Notes under the pieces: generated by a model
Seen by the model: only the letters and a program-made list of their open reading frames with translations
Told to the model about the DNA's origin: nothing
Databases searched by the model: none
Shown here: piece by piece, positions 28,716 through 38,885 of the stretch
Layout: the number at the start of each line of letters is the position of its first letter
Numbering within the stretch: the first letter of the stretch is position 1
Made by a program: the position numbers and the translations under genes
Source of the DNA: Nevskia sp.
GTDB taxonomy: Bacteria; Pseudomonadota; Gammaproteobacteria; Nevskiales; Nevskiaceae
DNA: 64,000 nucleotides
Assembly: GCA_021732745.1 (NCBI GenBank)
Contig: JAKFUK010000002.1
Coordinates: 893,882-957,881, forward strand
Direction: 5' to 3'

Positions 28716-28902
28716 GTGAGGGGTGAGGCGTGAGGCGTGAGGCGGAAAAGCGGGTGGTCGACGAGGGGCGGATTGCTCCTCTCGACACTGGCTTGCCTGC
28801 CGTAGCCCCGGGGCTGCCGCCCGGTGAAATCGGGCTCGGAAGTGCCATTCAAGGCTCTTCCGAAAACGCGCCCGATTCCACGCCTCACGCCTCACCCCTC
28901 AC
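28716..28902. repeat. Inverted GTGAGGC repeat at the 5' end of rlmN
   Basis: A 23-base arm at 28716-28738 (GTGAGGGGTGAGGCGTGAGG and three more bases) is repeated in exact reverse complement at 28880-28902. The arms are made of 8-mer units (gtgaggcg) and about 141 bases lie between them. It resembles a small palindromic intergenic element. It covers the region where the rlmN start should be, and only the GTG triplets inside the repeat give an open frame into rlmN. Confidence 0.85.
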
Positions 28903-30025
28903 GCCTCACGCCCGGGTCAATCTTTTCGGGCTAGACCGCGCCGCGCTGCGCGCCGAGTTCGAAAAGATGGGCGAATCCGGCTACCGCGCCGACCAGATCA
29001 TGCTGTGGATCTACCGGCGCGGCGTGGTCGATTTCGAGCAGATGAGCAATGTCGGCAAGGCCTTGCGCGCCCGGCTCGAAGCGCATTTCGTGATCCGCCC
29101 GCCGGAACTGGTCACCGAGCAGGTGTCGACCGATGGCACCCGCAAATGGGTGCTCAGGCTCGAGGAACGCGAGGGTCGGCCGGAAACGATGATCGAGACG
29201 GTCTACATCCCGGAAGCCAATCGCGGCACCTTGTGCATCAGCTCGCAGGCCGGCTGCGCGATGGACTGCTCGTTCTGTTCGACGGCCCAGGGTGGCTTTT
29301 CGCGCAACATGACCACGGCGGAAATCGTGGCCCAGGTGTACTTCGCCGGCAAGGCGCTCGGCGGTGACTTCCAGAACGAGAAAGTCATCTCCAACGTCGT
29401 GTTCATGGGCATGGGCGAGCCTCTCGCCAACTACAACGCGGTGCTGCCGGCGATCCGCATCCTGCTCGATGACTTCGGCTTTGGCCTCAGCAAGCGCCGA
29501 GTCACGGTGTCGACCTCCGGCCTGGTGCCGTTCATCGACCGTCTTGGCGATGATGTCGACACCGCACTCGCGATTTCGCTGCACGCGCCGAACGATCAGC
29601 TTCGCGATCAACTGGTGCCGATCAACAAGAAATACCCGATTGCCGAATTGATGGACGCCTGCCGCCGCTATCTGGCCGGCAAGGATCGCAAGGCGCACAT
29701 CGTCTACGAATACGTGATGCTCGAAGGCGTCAACGACCAGCCCGAGCACGCGCGCGAACTCGCGAAGCTGCTCAACGCCGCCCACGGCGGTTACTCGGCG
29801 AAGGTCAACCTGATTCCCTTCAACCCGTTTCCGAACGCGCGCTACACGCGCTCGAAGCCGGACGTGATCAGCCGTTTCTCCGACATCCTGCGCGCCAAGG
29901 GCCTGCTGACGATGACCCGCCGCACCCGCGGTGACGATATCGACGCGGCCTGCGGGCAGCTCGTCGGCAAGGTTCAGAGCAAGCAGAAGAAGCGGCTCGG
30001 TGACATACCGGTGCGCGTGCAATGA
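28730..30025 (+). CDS. rlmN: Dual-specificity rRNA/tRNA adenosine-C2 methyltransferase RlmN
   Basis: A radical SAM methyltransferase of A2503 in 23S rRNA and A37 in tRNAs. Motifs: VNLFGLDRAALRAEF at the usual start of homologues, the cluster cysteines CAMDCSFCSTAQGG, NVVFMGMGEPLANY, and the methyl-accepting cysteine in DIDAACGQL near the end. No ATG, GTG or TTG lies close to the usual start; the first usable in-frame start is GTG 28730 within the repeat, giving 431 residues with about 62 extra N-terminal residues. A GTG at 28754 is an alternative. The 3' end (29951-30025) is duplicated downstream. Enzyme call is firm, start uncertain. Confidence 0.9.
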   Translation: MRREAEKRVVDEGRIAPLDTGLPAVAPGLPPGEIGLGSAIQGSSENAPDSTPHASPLTPHARVNLFGLDRAALRAEFEKMGESGYRADQIMLWIYRRGVVDFEQMSNVGKALRARLEAHFVIRPPELVTEQVSTDGTRKWVLRLEEREGRPETMIETVYIPEANRGTLCISSQAGCAMDCSFCSTAQGGFSRNMTTAEIVAQVYFAGKALGGDFQNEKVISNVVFMGMGEPLANYNAVLPAIRILLDDFGFGLSKRRVTVSTSGLVPFIDRLGDDVDTALAISLHAPNDQLRDQLVPINKKYPIAELMDACRRYLAGKDRKAHIVYEYVMLEGVNDQPEHARELAKLLNAAHGGYSAKVNLIPFNPFPNARYTRSKPDVISRFSDILRAKGLLTMTRRTRGDDIDAACGQLVGKVQSKQKKRLGDIPVRVQ

Positions 30026-30114
30026 AGAGCCCGCAGGCCGCGCGCCCGACTCGCCTTGCTCCGATCCCCACCGCTGTCGCGGCGGGGCCCCTCGTCGGGG
30101 GCTCGCGTGCTTCC
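30026..30114. repeat. Hairpin-rich spacer between two rlmN 3' ends
   Basis: This 89-base insert separates the stop of rlmN from the second copy of its last 25 codons. It contains two GC hairpins: CCCCACCGC (30066-30074) with GCGGCGGGG (30079-30087), and GCCCC (30087-30091) with GGGGC (30098-30102). It may be the residue of a mobile element or a REP-like palindrome. Confidence 0.6.
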
Positions 30115-30189
30115 TGTGGCCAATTGGTCGGAAAAGTGCAGAGCAAGCAGAAAAAGCGCCTCGGCGACATCCCCGTGAGGGTGCAGTGA
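30115..30189 (+). pseudogene. rlmN: Second, synonymously recoded copy of the rlmN 3' end
   Basis: These 75 bases encode CGQLVGKVQSKQKKRLGDIP followed by VRVQ and a stop, exactly the same 24 residues as the end of the intact rlmN at 29951-30025. Fourteen of the 24 codons differ, and every difference is synonymous. The segment begins at the codon of the methyl-accepting cysteine of RlmN. Its stop overlaps the GTG start of the next gene by four bases (GTGA), which suggests that this is the ancestral rlmN end, still coupled to pilW, and that the copy now fused to rlmN was brought in. See findings. Confidence 0.9.
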
Positions 30190-30953
30190 TCCGTGGCCTT
30201 GCGGCCGCTGCGCTGCTGCTGGTGTCGCTGACCGCCTGCGTCACCGAAACCAGCGGCGAGCTGCGCCCGCAGTCGCCGCCGGATCTGGAGGAAGCGGCAA
30301 AGATCAACACCCAGCTGGGTGTCGATTACGCGCGTCAGGGCCGCTTCGATGTGGCCGAGGAAAAGCTGCGCAAGGCCGTCGAACAGGACGAGAACTACGC
30401 GCAGGCGCACAGCATGCTGGCCTATGTGCTGACCCAGATCGGCGATCGCGAGGGTGCTGAGCGCGAGTACCGCCGCGCGCTGGCGCTGGCACCGGGTGAC
30501 GCGGCCACGCACAACAATTTCGGCGTTTTCCTCTGCGATCTGGGCAAGACCAAGGAAGCCGATCGCGAATTCCAGACCGCCCTCGCCGATCGCAACTACC
30601 CGACGCCCGAGGCCGCCTGGACCAATGCCGGCATCTGCCAGCAGCAGGCGAAAGACCCGCGCGCCGAAGACAGTTTTCGCGCCGCACTCAAGATCAATCC
30701 CGAATACCGGGCGGCGCTGGCGCAGATCGCGGCCTTGACCTACCGCAAGAGCGACTGGCAACGCACCGATGCTTTCGTCAAGCGTTACGAAAAGCTCGGC
30801 AGTCTGACGCCGGACTTGCTGCTGATCGCCGCCCGCACCCAGCGCAAGCTCGGTGACAAGGTGGCTGCGCGGCGCTACGAACAAACCCTTCTGCGCGATT
30901 TCCCCGAATCCGACCAGGCCGTGCAACTGCTGAAGAACCCGCCTGCACCATGA
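30186..30953 (+). CDS. pilW: Type IV pilus biogenesis/stability lipoprotein PilW (PilF)
   Basis: A 255-residue TPR lipoprotein. The lipobox is LTAC in the leader MIRGLAAAALLLVSLTAC. TPR repeats span about residues 38-215: INTQLGVDYARQGRFDVAEE, AHSMLAYVLTQIGDREGAER, THNNFGVFLCDLGKTKEADR and similar. In type IV pilus systems PilW/PilF assembles the secretin PilQ in the outer membrane. The GTG start at 30186 overlaps the rlmN remnant stop; the gene order rlmN-pilW-rodZ is conserved in gammaproteobacteria. No other pil genes are in the window. Confidence 0.92.
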   Translation: MIRGLAAAALLLVSLTACVTETSGELRPQSPPDLEEAAKINTQLGVDYARQGRFDVAEEKLRKAVEQDENYAQAHSMLAYVLTQIGDREGAEREYRRALALAPGDAATHNNFGVFLCDLGKTKEADREFQTALADRNYPTPEAAWTNAGICQQQAKDPRAEDSFRAALKINPEYRAALAQIAALTYRKSDWQRTDAFVKRYEKLGSLTPDLLLIAARTQRKLGDKVAARRYEQTLLRDFPESDQAVQLLKNPPAP

Positions 30954-35283: not shown

Positions 35284-36741
35284 ATGAGCAGCATCCCTGA
35301 AGTGCCCCCCGTTGCAATCCCGGCCGCTGAAGCCGCCGAGCCGAAGATGTTGCCGGTCATCGCCCTGGTCGGCCGCCCGAACGTCGGCAAGTCGACCCTG
35401 TTCAACCGCTTCACCAACAGCCGCGACGCCCTGGTCGCCGACTACGCCGGCCTGACTCGCGATCGCCAGTACGGGCAGGGCAGCTACGACAAGAAGCGCT
35501 TCATCGTCGTCGACACCGGCGGCCTGATGCCGGAGTCGACCGATGCGCTGGCCGCCCTCGCCGAAGCGCAGGCGCGGATCGCCATCGAGGACGCTGACAC
35601 CGTGCTGTTCCTGGTCGATGCCAAGGCCGGGCTGATGCCGTCGGACATCGAGATCGCCAACGTCCTGCGCAAGCTCGGCAAGCCGGTGCGCTTGCTGGCG
35701 AACAAGTCCGAAGGCATGACCAAGTCCTTCGTCGCCGATTTCTACAAACTGGGGCTCGGCGAGCCGACCGTGATCTCCGCCGAATTCGGCGACGGCATCA
35801 ACGGTCTCTTGCGCGAACTGCTGGCCGCAACACCGCAGAACATGGAAGAGCCGGAGTGGGATGACGGCACCATCCGGGTGGCGATTGTTGGTCGCCCGAA
35901 CGCCGGCAAGTCCACCCTGGTCAACCGCCTGATCGGCGAGGACCGGGTGCTGTCGTCCGACCAGCCGGGCACCACGCGCGACTCGATCTCCGTGCCGTTC
36001 GAGTGGGGCGGTCGCAAGTTCCAGCTGATCGACACGGCTGGTGTCCGGCGCAAGTCGCGGGTCACCGAAGTGATCGAAAAGTTCTCGATCGTCAAGACCT
36101 TGCAGGCCATCGACCGCGCCCATGTGGTGATCGCCATGGTCGACGCCCACGACGAGATCGGCACCCACGACGCCCGGATCATGGGCCTGGTCGCCCATCA
36201 CGGCCGGGCGATGGTGCTGGCGGTCAACAAGTGGGACGGCCTGGACATGGACAAGCGCAAGTGGGTGCGCGAGATGGTCGACTACAAGCTGCCGTTCCTC
36301 GACTACGTGCCGGTCGATTTCGTCTCCGCACTGCACGGCTCGGGCCTGCGCGAGCTGATGGAACACGTCGTCGCCGGCTACGAAGCGACCACGCGCGAAA
36401 TGGCCACGCCGGAACTGAACCGGGTGCTGATCGCCGCCGTGGAAAAGCACGCGCCGCACGCCATCCTCGGCCGCCGCATCAAGCTCCGCTACTGCCACCA
36501 GAGCGGCCGCAATCCGCCGGCGATCATGATTCACGGCAACCAGACCGACAAACTGAAAGACAGCTACGTCAGCTATCTCGCCAACACCTTCCGCGAAGCC
36601 TTCAAGCTGCAGGGCGTGCCGCTGAAGCTCGAATTCAAGACCGGCGACAACCCGTTCAAGAACAAGAAAAGCGACCTGTCGCCGGCCATGCAGATGAAGG
36701 CCAAGCGGCTGGCGGCGCAGTCGGCAAGGACCAAGAAGTAG
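35284..36741 (+). CDS. der: Ribosome biogenesis GTPase Der (EngA)
   Basis: A 485-residue essential GTPase with two tandem G domains and a KH-like C-terminus, needed for 50S subunit assembly. G domain 1 has ALVGRPNVGKSTLFNRF, DTGG and NKSEG. G domain 2 has AIVGRPNAGKSTLVNRL, DTAGVRRKSR and NKWDG. The KH-like tail contains RIKLRYCHQSGRNPPAIMIH and ends in VPLKLEFKTGDNPFKNKKSD and a basic tail. The last ~129 bases recur at 38757-38885, beyond the methyltransferase gene. Confidence 0.97.
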   Translation: MSSIPEVPPVAIPAAEAAEPKMLPVIALVGRPNVGKSTLFNRFTNSRDALVADYAGLTRDRQYGQGSYDKKRFIVVDTGGLMPESTDALAALAEAQARIAIEDADTVLFLVDAKAGLMPSDIEIANVLRKLGKPVRLLANKSEGMTKSFVADFYKLGLGEPTVISAEFGDGINGLLRELLAATPQNMEEPEWDDGTIRVAIVGRPNAGKSTLVNRLIGEDRVLSSDQPGTTRDSISVPFEWGGRKFQLIDTAGVRRKSRVTEVIEKFSIVKTLQAIDRAHVVIAMVDAHDEIGTHDARIMGLVAHHGRAMVLAVNKWDGLDMDKRKWVREMVDYKLPFLDYVPVDFVSALHGSGLRELMEHVVAGYEATTREMATPELNRVLIAAVEKHAPHAILGRRIKLRYCHQSGRNPPAIMIHGNQTDKLKDSYVSYLANTFREAFKLQGVPLKLEFKTGDNPFKNKKSDLSPAMQMKAKRLAAQSARTKK

Positions 36742-36767
36742 GGTCGACGCGGGGGCGGAGCGAGGCG

Positions 36768-38510
36768 ATGACGCAGGCAACGGAGGTCGTCGTGGTTGCC
36801 GCCAAGCGTTACAGCGAATCGAGTGCGCGAAAGTCATCGGGCACGGTCTACACGCCCAAGCGATTCGCCGGTTTTGCGGCTGAGCAGATGCTGTCGCTGG
36901 TGACGGTCCCGAACAGCCAGCCGCTGCTTCTGCTGGACCCGGCCTGCGGCGATGGATCACTGCTGATGGCGGTCCTTGAACGGCTGCCCGCTGCCGTGCG
37001 GGATTGTCTTGTGGTCCACGGCTTCGATACCGATGACGTTGCGGTGCGGGCGACCAGCGCACGCATTCGCGATCGCTTTCCGGACCAGCAACTGCGGATC
37101 GAGCAGCGGGATTTCCTCGAATACCTGGCGGGCCGCAATGACGATCTGTTCTCGGCGTCGTCGAGCCGGGAGCAGTTCGATCTGGTCATCGCCAATCCGC
37201 CCTATGTCCGTACTCAAGTGCTGGGGGCTGCCGAGGCGGCGAGGCTCGCCACTCGATTCGGATTGACCGGCCGCGTCGATCTCTACTACCCGTTCGTGCT
37301 GGGTATCGGCGAGGTGCTGGCACCGCGCGGGGTGGCCGGCGTCATCGTGTCGAACCGGTTCATGACCACGCGTTCCGGTCAGGCGGTTCGCAGCGGCCTG
37401 CGCGCGGCGATGAACATCCGCCACGTGTGGGATCTGGGCGACACCCGCTTGTTCGACGCCGCCGTGCTGCCCGCATTCATCCTCGCTACCGGGACAGCGG
37501 CCGCCGCTGCGGGTCCAGCGGGCTTCTCGACGATCTACGCCTGCGATCAAGCGGCTACCGCAACGAGTCCCGATCCTCTGACTGCGCTCGGGCAGCCGGA
37601 TGGTGCCGTGGTCGCAATGCCCGACGGTCAGACTTTCGCCATCAAGCACGGCGAACTGTCGCTGAACACTGATCGCGGTGCGGTTTGGCGGCTTTCGGGA
37701 GTCACCGCAGACCATTGGCTCAAGCGCGTTGCCGACCGTACCTGGGACAGCTTCGAACGGATCGGCAAGATCAAGGTCGGGGTGAAGTCCACGGCTGATC
37801 GCGTGTTCATCCGCTCGGACTGGCATCTCATGCCAGTAGCGGAACGCCCGGAACTGCTGCGCCCCTTGACCACCCGGCACTGCGCGCGCCGCTTCCGCCC
37901 GATCGACGATCCGAAATGTCGGCAAATCCTTTATCCACATGAAGCGAGCGCGAACGGCCGGGCAGCCGTCGATCTGCGTCAGTATCCGAACGCGGCGCGT
38001 TATCTCGACGAACACCGTGCAGTGCTGGAAGCGCGTGATTACCTGATCGCTGCCGGCCGCCGGTGGTACGAAATCTGGGTGCCCCACGATCCGGAAGCCT
38101 GGGCGCAACCCAAGCTAGTGTTTCCGGACATCTCCGAAAAGCCGGTGTTCTGGCTCGACGAGTCCGGTTCGGTGGTCAACGGAGAGTGCTACTGGATGCG
38201 CTGCGAGCGCGGTGCCGATCCGGACTGGCTGTGGCTGGCGCTCGCGGTAGCCAATTCCAGCTTCATCGAAGCGTTCTATGACCGACGCTTCAACAACAAG
38301 CTGTACGCCGGACGGCGGCGCTTCATCACCCAGTACGTCGAGCAATTTCCGCTGCCCGACCCCGCATCCGGGCATGGCATGGCCTTGATCGAGATGGCGC
38401 GTCAGGTTTACCGCTTGACGCCGTCGGCCGAAGCGGACGCCGCAGTCCTTACCCTCGATCGAATGGTATGGGCTGCGTTCGGGTTTTCAGTCGAAGAAAT
38501 CGGCGGGTAG
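36768..38510 (+). CDS. N6-adenine-specific DNA methyltransferase, type II R-M class
   Basis: A 580-residue DNA methyltransferase of the gamma (N6-adenine) class. It has the N-terminal segment TVYTPKRFAGFAAEQML, the AdoMet motif I LLLDPACGDGSLLMAVL, and the catalytic motif IV FDLVIANPPYVRTQVLG. The C-terminal half (about residues 300-560) is a TaqI-like target recognition region (WYEIWVPHDPEAWAQPKLVF, FNNKLYAGRRRFITQYVEQF). A GGAG site is seven bases before the ATG. The gene is inserted immediately after der and flanked by a direct repeat of the der 3' end. A convergent restriction-enzyme stump follows, so this is probably a type II methylase left as an orphan. Confidence 0.9.
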   Translation: MTQATEVVVVAAKRYSESSARKSSGTVYTPKRFAGFAAEQMLSLVTVPNSQPLLLLDPACGDGSLLMAVLERLPAAVRDCLVVHGFDTDDVAVRATSARIRDRFPDQQLRIEQRDFLEYLAGRNDDLFSASSSREQFDLVIANPPYVRTQVLGAAEAARLATRFGLTGRVDLYYPFVLGIGEVLAPRGVAGVIVSNRFMTTRSGQAVRSGLRAAMNIRHVWDLGDTRLFDAAVLPAFILATGTAAAAAGPAGFSTIYACDQAATATSPDPLTALGQPDGAVVAMPDGQTFAIKHGELSLNTDRGAVWRLSGVTADHWLKRVADRTWDSFERIGKIKVGVKSTADRVFIRSDWHLMPVAERPELLRPLTTRHCARRFRPIDDPKCRQILYPHEASANGRAAVDLRQYPNAARYLDEHRAVLEARDYLIAAGRRWYEIWVPHDPEAWAQPKLVFPDISEKPVFWLDESGSVVNGECYWMRCERGADPDWLWLALAVANSSFIEAFYDRRFNNKLYAGRRRFITQYVEQFPLPDPASGHGMALIEMARQVYRLTPSAEADAAVLTLDRMVWAAFGFSVEEIGG

Positions 38511-38639: not shown

Positions 38640-38756
38640 CTACGGATTGCAAACGACATTCGATCCGCCCGAACGGATGCCGTCAGGGTGCCGAGCGGAC
38701 GCGCAGATATACTCACGAGCGAGCAATGAATGCTCTGGACCCACCCCGTTCCCGGA

Positions 38757-38885
38757 CGTGCCGCTGAAACTCGAATTCAAGACCGGCGACAAGCCGTTCA
38801 AGAACAAGAAAAGCGACCTGTCGCCGGCCATGCAGATGAAGGCCAAGCGGCTGGCGGCGCAGTCGGCGAGGACCAAGAAGTAGGG
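38757..38885 (+). pseudogene. der: Duplicate of the der 3' end
   Basis: This segment repeats der 36615-36743 with three base changes in about 129 positions: a synonymous Lys codon, Asn to Lys in the GDNPF motif (GDKPF here), and a synonymous Ala codon. It encodes the last 41 residues of Der and its stop. A plus-strand frame open from 38530 runs into it in phase, giving a possible 117-residue chimera, but no function is expected. It marks the right boundary of the methyltransferase insertion. Confidence 0.92.

Follow-up and report, generated by a model that had tools for sequence, protein, structure and literature searches.

A 62-bp palindromic element between two copies of the rlmN 3' end in a Nevskia genome, and the probable gain of the upstream copy from a relative

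The prophages e14 and phage 21 reside in icd and carry an integrase, the incoming DNA bringing a silent-variant end of the gene that displaces the native one. Long target duplications are described both for restriction-modification genes (Nobusato 2000, cited in PMC3031569) and for IS1549 and IS1634, where they range over 8-514 bp; according to a 2008 review, the duplications of these two elements were still without a proposed mechanistic model (PMC2266710). Among palindromic sequences, REP and REPIN palindromes, associated with RAYT transposases, are described as short, dispersed and 20-40 bp long (PMC3733652; PMC3116915; PMC2817692), while Rickettsia palindromic elements (RPEs) are given as about 150 bp long and located inside genes as fusions (PMC10969869).

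The window considered here, i.e. the whole stretch of DNA that was analysed, comprises 64,000 nt of a Nevskia sp. genome (contig JAKFUK010000002.1). As a preliminary description drawn from the sequence had stated, the last 24 codons and the stop of rlmN recur downstream of the gene, and a comparison codon by codon of the two 75-nt copies (29951-30025 and 30115-30189), which lie in register 164 bp apart, gave 11 identical codons (stop counted), 14 synonymous changes and no non-synonymous one, with 79% identity over 77 aligned nt. The TGA of the second copy (30187-30189) and the GTG start of a pilW-like gene (30186-30188) share the four-base overlap that had also been reported. We assign a probability of roughly 0.6 to the reading that a 62-bp element lies between the two ends, and that the upstream end together with the spacer (164 bp) was gained from a relative by recombination, displacing the native end. 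In what follows, G000 is the window's own genome, G011 its sister, and the other G-numbers denote the genomes compared, many of which are draft or metagenome assemblies. The features of the locus are as follows.

28730..30025, + strand: rlmN open reading frame, longest reading, with Pfam RlmN_N and Radical_SAM (Pfam run on 28928-30022)
29944..29957, + strand: left arm of a 14-nt perfect inverted repeat, around the Cys codon
29951..30025, + strand: upstream rlmN 3' end, now functional, foreign-like (repeat alignment, codon and relative comparison)
30022..30189, + strand: 55-aa frame crossing spacer and second copy, from the ATG that overlaps the rlmN stop to the stop that overlaps the pilW start
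30026..30114, + strand: spacer of 89 nt, made up of a 20-nt left flank, the element and a 7-nt right flank
30029..30042, + strand: right arm of the same 14-nt inverted repeat, at the spacer start
30046..30107, + strand: 62-nt palindromic element, member of a dispersed family (model R1)
30115..30189, + strand: downstream rlmN 3' end copy, putative displaced native end (same comparisons)
30186..30953, + strand: pilW-like gene, GTG start overlapping the stop of the second copy (open reading frame list; name taken from the preliminary description)

The repeat at rlmN is more than chance, since a comparable flanking score was reached at 4 of 570 random anchors and both frame and protein are kept. 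The TGA of the upstream end overlaps an ATG (30022-30024) that opens the 55-codon frame, and the 14-nt inverted repeat pairs the region of the Cys codon with the start of the spacer. Around the start of rlmN (28720-28912), repeated GTGAGGCGT / ACGCCTCAC motifs are present.

A RlmN search of 61 genomes returned extra short matches directly after rlmN in several relatives, with two in G015, and no second end far from the gene, bar one at a contig edge in G004, where the contig stops inside the second copy. With scans reaching 300-400 nt downstream of rlmN, a second end behind a spacer of 74-90 nt was recorded in 21 distinct genomes, i.e. in G000 and 20 relatives. The carriers are G000, G003, G004, G006, G007, G008, G012, G014, G015, G016, G021, G023, G027, G065, G069, Solimonas terrae, S. 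flava, S. variicoloris, S. soli, one Polycyclovorans MAG and one Nevskiaceae MAG, some of them deposited as Nevskia or Solimonas. This total unites two overlapping sets, namely the G-genome loci read first (11 of 30 with a second end) and the closest named loci (10 of 23), with L063, G004, G012 and G069. A single end, with the pilW start either at the stop or only a few bases away from it, was found in G011, G005, G002, G010, G017, G013, G001 and G009. Among 57 distant named loci (L105-L161), 8 were without the motif and 1 lay at a contig edge; the 48 testable ones, scanned over 400 nt, all lacked a second copy of more than 50% identity. Summed over G000, G014, G008, G015 and G016, the second ends show 29 silent and no amino-acid changes; those of the four Solimonas carry 4-7 amino-acid changes, and the cysteine is absent from the second end in G003, G006 and Polycyclovorans.

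Comparison with close relatives, three of which are empty at rlmN (G011, G002 and G010), separates the two ends of G000. The nearest match of the downstream end is the single end of G011 (88%), the two differing at 9 sites, 8 of them silent, with the one amino-acid change lying in G011, whereas the upstream end is 95% identical to G016 and 92% to G014, against 77% to the G011 end. The rlmN body of G000 is 92% identical to G011 and 86% to G016, and its pilW 81% and 77%, respectively. Such a G016-over-G011 contrast occurred in 0 of 920 overlapping 75-nt windows of the rlmN body and 0 of 643 of pilW, and the outcome was equally null with four other donors for G000, three for G015 and four for G014, bearing in mind that the window count differs slightly by pair and that the tail compared is only 75 nt. 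Part of the contrast at the upstream end arises because the G011 end is itself unusual, as the single ends of other non-carriers are also 85-88% identical to the upstream end (88% in G005, 88% in G010, 85% in G002). Since the contrast is nevertheless unmatched in any body or pilW window, an outside origin is most likely for the upstream end of G000, and the displaced native end is most likely the downstream one; both assignments agree with those of the preliminary description. The upstream ends of G015 and G014, like that of G000, match distant carriers better than sisters, and G014 is filled at rlmN, although G002 and G010, 95-96% identical in the rlmN body, are empty. In the comparison of G000 with its relatives, the left border of the acquired stretch is not visible. 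Between G014 and G010, 12 of 39 differences fall in the 90 nt immediately preceding the Cys codon (p 0.0003), with a weaker excess over the same 90 nt between G010 and G002 (9 of 40, p 0.03).

A further set of filled and empty sites is provided by argG, where the element is absent from G002 and G011 and present in G014, G015, G005, G008 and, by eye, G010; past the second copy, G014 and G015 agree with the empty loci. G010 and G014 differ from G005, G008 and G015 in where the repeat begins, which suggests two separate argG insertions. In G005, G008 and G015 it is the first argG copy, not the second, that is closer to the G011 end, so that a foreign first copy is not a general pattern.

An unlikely explanation is that one old insertion in an ancestor of the family was followed by repeated precise loss and gene conversion, without any lateral transfer. 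The same repeat borders and related spacers are indeed found across several genera, direct repeats make loss easy, and in both G025 and G036 the smpB arrays appear homogenised genome by genome. Against this history stand the upstream ends of G000, G015 and G014, nearer to distant carriers in a way unlike any body or pilW window, the filled state of G014 next to its empty close relatives, and the second end of G000, which should show amino-acid changes had it long been redundant.

The core of the spacer recurs away from rlmN. An alignment of cores, 11 taken at rlmN and 4 elsewhere, shows a common hairpin, the middle helix of which swaps C-G/G-C for G-C/C-G in several of the sequences; the structure was drawn from these same aligned sequences, and the paired percentage alone proves little. 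The covariation score was above all 500 shuffles and all slid controls, and the 11 two-sided pair-change cells were reached by 0 of 500 shuffles, slid versions giving 0-1; two other measures fell within the shuffles, namely pairs with two-sided change (133 of 500) and pair types (63 of 500). Using stricter filters, the covariance model R1 gave 105 matches in 25 of 51 genomes at E 0.05 and, on 274 genomes from the class, matches in 5 at E 0.001, G000 included. The element measures 52-66 nt in 103 of 104 cases. Contigs end close to elements in G004 (C75 and C82) and G010 (C86), which suggests that repeats are collapsed or broken in the draft assemblies and that element counts are low.

Of the 105 R1 matches, 104 had a locus and 100 enough flank for a test in which a direct repeat scoring 50 or more was sought over 130 nt on each side. 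Such a repeat flanked 48 of the 100 testable elements, against the 4 of 570 random anchors placed in the same loci, and none was detected within that distance at the remaining 52. The repeat starts again within 20 nt after the element in 45 cases, compared with 2 random anchors, and its first start lies 79-102 nt before the element in 37 of these 45, which represent 34 loci, 11 of them rlmN, several being the same gene in different genomes. When the flanks of different element sites were paired as another control, scores of at least 50 appeared in 13 of 312 pairings versus 51 of 104 real ones; loci shared across genomes, such as rlmN, may inflate this control. Genes with a repeated end that were confirmed by Pfam, one example each, are RlmN, SmpB, GlyQ, ArgG, SpeE and MetF, together with an HD phosphohydrolase (dgt-like) and an M48 peptidase; two cases concern gene starts (pntB-like and ABC permease genes, named by eye), and some repeat-flanked loci were not matched to a gene. 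The speE repeat spans 84 bp at 100% identity and thus points to a recent event, and in G021 the repeat extends beyond the rlmN stop as far as the element. The preliminary description had placed the insertion at the codon of the methyl-accepting cysteine; the rlmN repeat does start there, but this codon is not an evident cut point, as the repeats at other genes begin at unrelated codons.

Two loci after argG (L309 in G012 and L305 in G001) deserve mention, where part of the argG end apparently recurs on either side of another hairpin, of the types CTTGAAGCGG..CCGCTTCAAG and CTTGGAGCCGGC..GCCGGCTCCAAG, so that other hairpin families may also copy gene ends. Between rlmN and pilW of G069 (L271), the start of pilW resembles two stretches, the left flank of the spacer and the element's left half, and gives the impression that pilW has taken up a second element.

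Several loci hold tandem arrays, with units mostly of 137-164 nt, others of 59, 103 and 237 nt, and argG units of 153 and 157 nt, which are not 2 mod 3. In some arrays the number of elements equals that of gene ends, and some terminate in an element or a piece of one. Equal numbers are not given by plain insertion, and such arrays may have grown by tandem duplication. Both the arrays, with their prevailing unit size, and their ending in an element or a piece of it would also suit replication slippage at a resident hairpin, which would have duplicated the gene end with the hairpin before the distal hairpin was lost. We hold this to be rather unlikely, because the same element family occurs at unrelated genes, so that the element moves, because the rlmN end is single at all 48 testable distant loci, and because no consistent microhomology was seen by eye at the joints.

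Spacer lengths among the carriers are 74, 77, 80, 83, 86 and 89 nt, i.e. 2 mod 3 in 20 of 21 carriers, the exception being G012, where a 90-nt spacer lets the frame read on into pilW. This regularity over six lengths, a frame opening at or beside the rlmN stop (cut by the contig end in G004) and the silent-only divergence in G000 would all be expected if the spacer and the second end formed a selected small gene of 50-55 aa, in which a short basic leader would precede the cysteine-bearing RlmN C-terminus. Such a gene is improbable: the leader is not conserved as a protein between clades, although its nucleotides are, the second ends of the four Solimonas have gained amino-acid changes, the cysteine is dispensed with in three carriers, the G012 frame runs on, and the argG units disregard the 2 mod 3 rule. 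An identical 74-nt spacer is shared by Solimonas flava, S. variicoloris and S. soli despite the differing rlmN end of S. soli. What is maintained through the spacer frame appears to be the translational coupling to pilW, not a protein.

The preliminary description took the spacer for the remnant of a larger integrative element by which the rlmN 3' end had been replaced, which is very improbable. A foreign-like upstream and a native-like downstream end are what such an element would leave, and in kind the idea of mobile DNA restoring a gene end holds good; as to the remnant, however, all 21 carriers are without a larger insert, their spacers measuring 74-90 nt, and the spacer core is itself a repeated element. 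The single-end strains coupled to pilW that had been anticipated do exist (e.g. G011, G002 and G010), whereas the larger insert anticipated alongside them was not seen in the carriers. The suggested search of mobile-element collections gave no match to phage records and one weak match to plasmid records, irrelevant in that it lies inside a primosomal protein N' gene; in a virus collection, one pattern matched one virus contig and the other none. Within its own genome the spacer has one full match, the next best being partial (77% over 47 query bases and 79% over 39). Rfam, applied to 29900-30300 at a permissive threshold, returned three matches, all far under gathering scores, and folding of the region revealed no excess stability (z -0.01). 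An assembly artefact, conceivable in that G000 and many relatives are draft assemblies, has a negligible probability given that named strains (Solimonas terrae, S. flava, S. variicoloris and S. soli) also have the second end and that the two G000 copies differ at 14 codons.

According to the preferred reading, in which the upstream end and the spacer were gained by recombination, the element would have inserted in an earlier host about 20 nt past the rlmN stop, duplicating a target of roughly 75-100 bp, so that rlmN would retain its whole end to the left of the element and pilW its whole start to the right. A long target duplication accords with a count of n elements among n+1 gene ends, with distant relatives having one rlmN end only and with the fairly constant distance. 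The duplicate end would then offer landing homology, by which the unit could move between species through homologous recombination, multiply in tandem or be lost again. In G000, the native rlmN end would have been left displaced onto the pilW start, and the short in-frame ORF would be kept so that ribosomes finishing rlmN still reach that start. The 14:0 ratio of silent to amino-acid changes would follow if, before the acquisition, each copy had been the functional end of a separate rlmN gene.

More tentatively, the family may represent a new class of tiny mobile palindromes with a near-constant target duplication of 80-100 bp, harmless at packed gene borders, in which the duplicate acts as homology homing gene-end cassettes into the same gene of other species. 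Compact genomes have little safe room for mobile DNA, a problem that an element gaining a copy of the gene end would solve. It would need neither an intron nor a specific integrase, and would explain partial gene duplications with silent changes only. The gain of the upstream end and the element from a relative would illustrate a way for tiny mobile DNA to settle between closely spaced genes while leaving them unbroken, and the filled and empty sites constitute a defined set for asking how long target duplications form.

A different insert is found elsewhere in the window, where an Eco57I/TaqI-type N6-adenine methyltransferase gene stands between two copies of the der 3' end that are 97% identical.

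36612-36743 and 38754-38885: copies of the der 3' end (132 nt)
36768-38510: methyltransferase gene between them

Among the matches listed for 18 genomes searched with Der, a second C-terminal one occurred in G000 only, and the site looks like, and is likely to be, an insertion with long target duplication. Der of G000 (35284-36741) is 95% identical to G002 and G010 and 90-91% to G005 and G011, an identity order that reverses that of the rlmN body and hints that the der region was separately acquired.

Regarding mobilisation, no transposase parallels the elements in distribution: a Y1 transposase (PF01797) was matched in 39 of 51 genomes, and the element-bearing G003, G004, G017, G018 and G019 had no match, which weakens the case for a RAYT as mobiliser. 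In G008, the dgt element array is immediately followed by a Y1 (IS200-like) transposase gene (L198, 168-893), and Y1 matches stand beside the dgt element in G005 and G014 as well.

Set against the described systems, the elements resemble REP and REPIN sequences in being short dispersed palindromes, sometimes in arrays, and in the Y1 gene beside the dgt element in G008, G005 and G014. They differ in being mostly 52-66 nt long rather than 20-40 bp, in that several element-bearing genomes have no Y1 match, and in the gene-end copies at their flanks, which the part of the REP account compared here does not mention (PMC3733652). REP sequences bear GTAG or CGTC at one end. Scored on either strand and anywhere in the element, irrespective of position at its end, GTAG was found in 15 of 104 elements and CGTC in 64 of 104. 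Terminal inverted repeats like those of MITEs were not apparent, as the first 12 nt, compared with the reverse complement of the last 12, gave at most 6 matches in the 104 elements with ends as set by the model. With RPEs they share palindromic mobile DNA in open reading frames, but here the element lies between two copies of the gene end, after the rlmN stop, and among the rlmN loci no in-frame fusion inside the gene was seen, the G012 frame into pilW being the exception.

The long and variable direct repeats around the insert, in a form able to amplify in tandem, recall the insertion of restriction-modification genes, although the insert is a gene complex there and a hairpin of about 60 bp here, with repeats mostly starting 79-102 nt before it. 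Long target duplications are likewise shared with IS1549 and IS1634, which are, however, full ISs with a transposase and terminal inverted repeats, whereas the present element is too small for a gene and shows no terminal inverted repeat. In line with insertion of this kind are the direct repeats at 48 of 100 elements, including the identical 84-bp pair at speE, and the empty sites at argG (G002, G011) and rlmN (G011, G002, G010).

The likeness to e14 and phage 21 lies in the supply of a silent-variant end and the displacement of the native one, as seen at rlmN in G000, G015 and G014 and in reverse at argG in G005, G008 and G015; the difference is that the 164-bp unit has no integrase gene, being too small to hold a recombinase. 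Searches confined to the open-access literature yielded no description of elements with copied gene ends at their flanks. The rlmN element looks like a small palindromic repeat of a new sort rather than the scar of a larger element.
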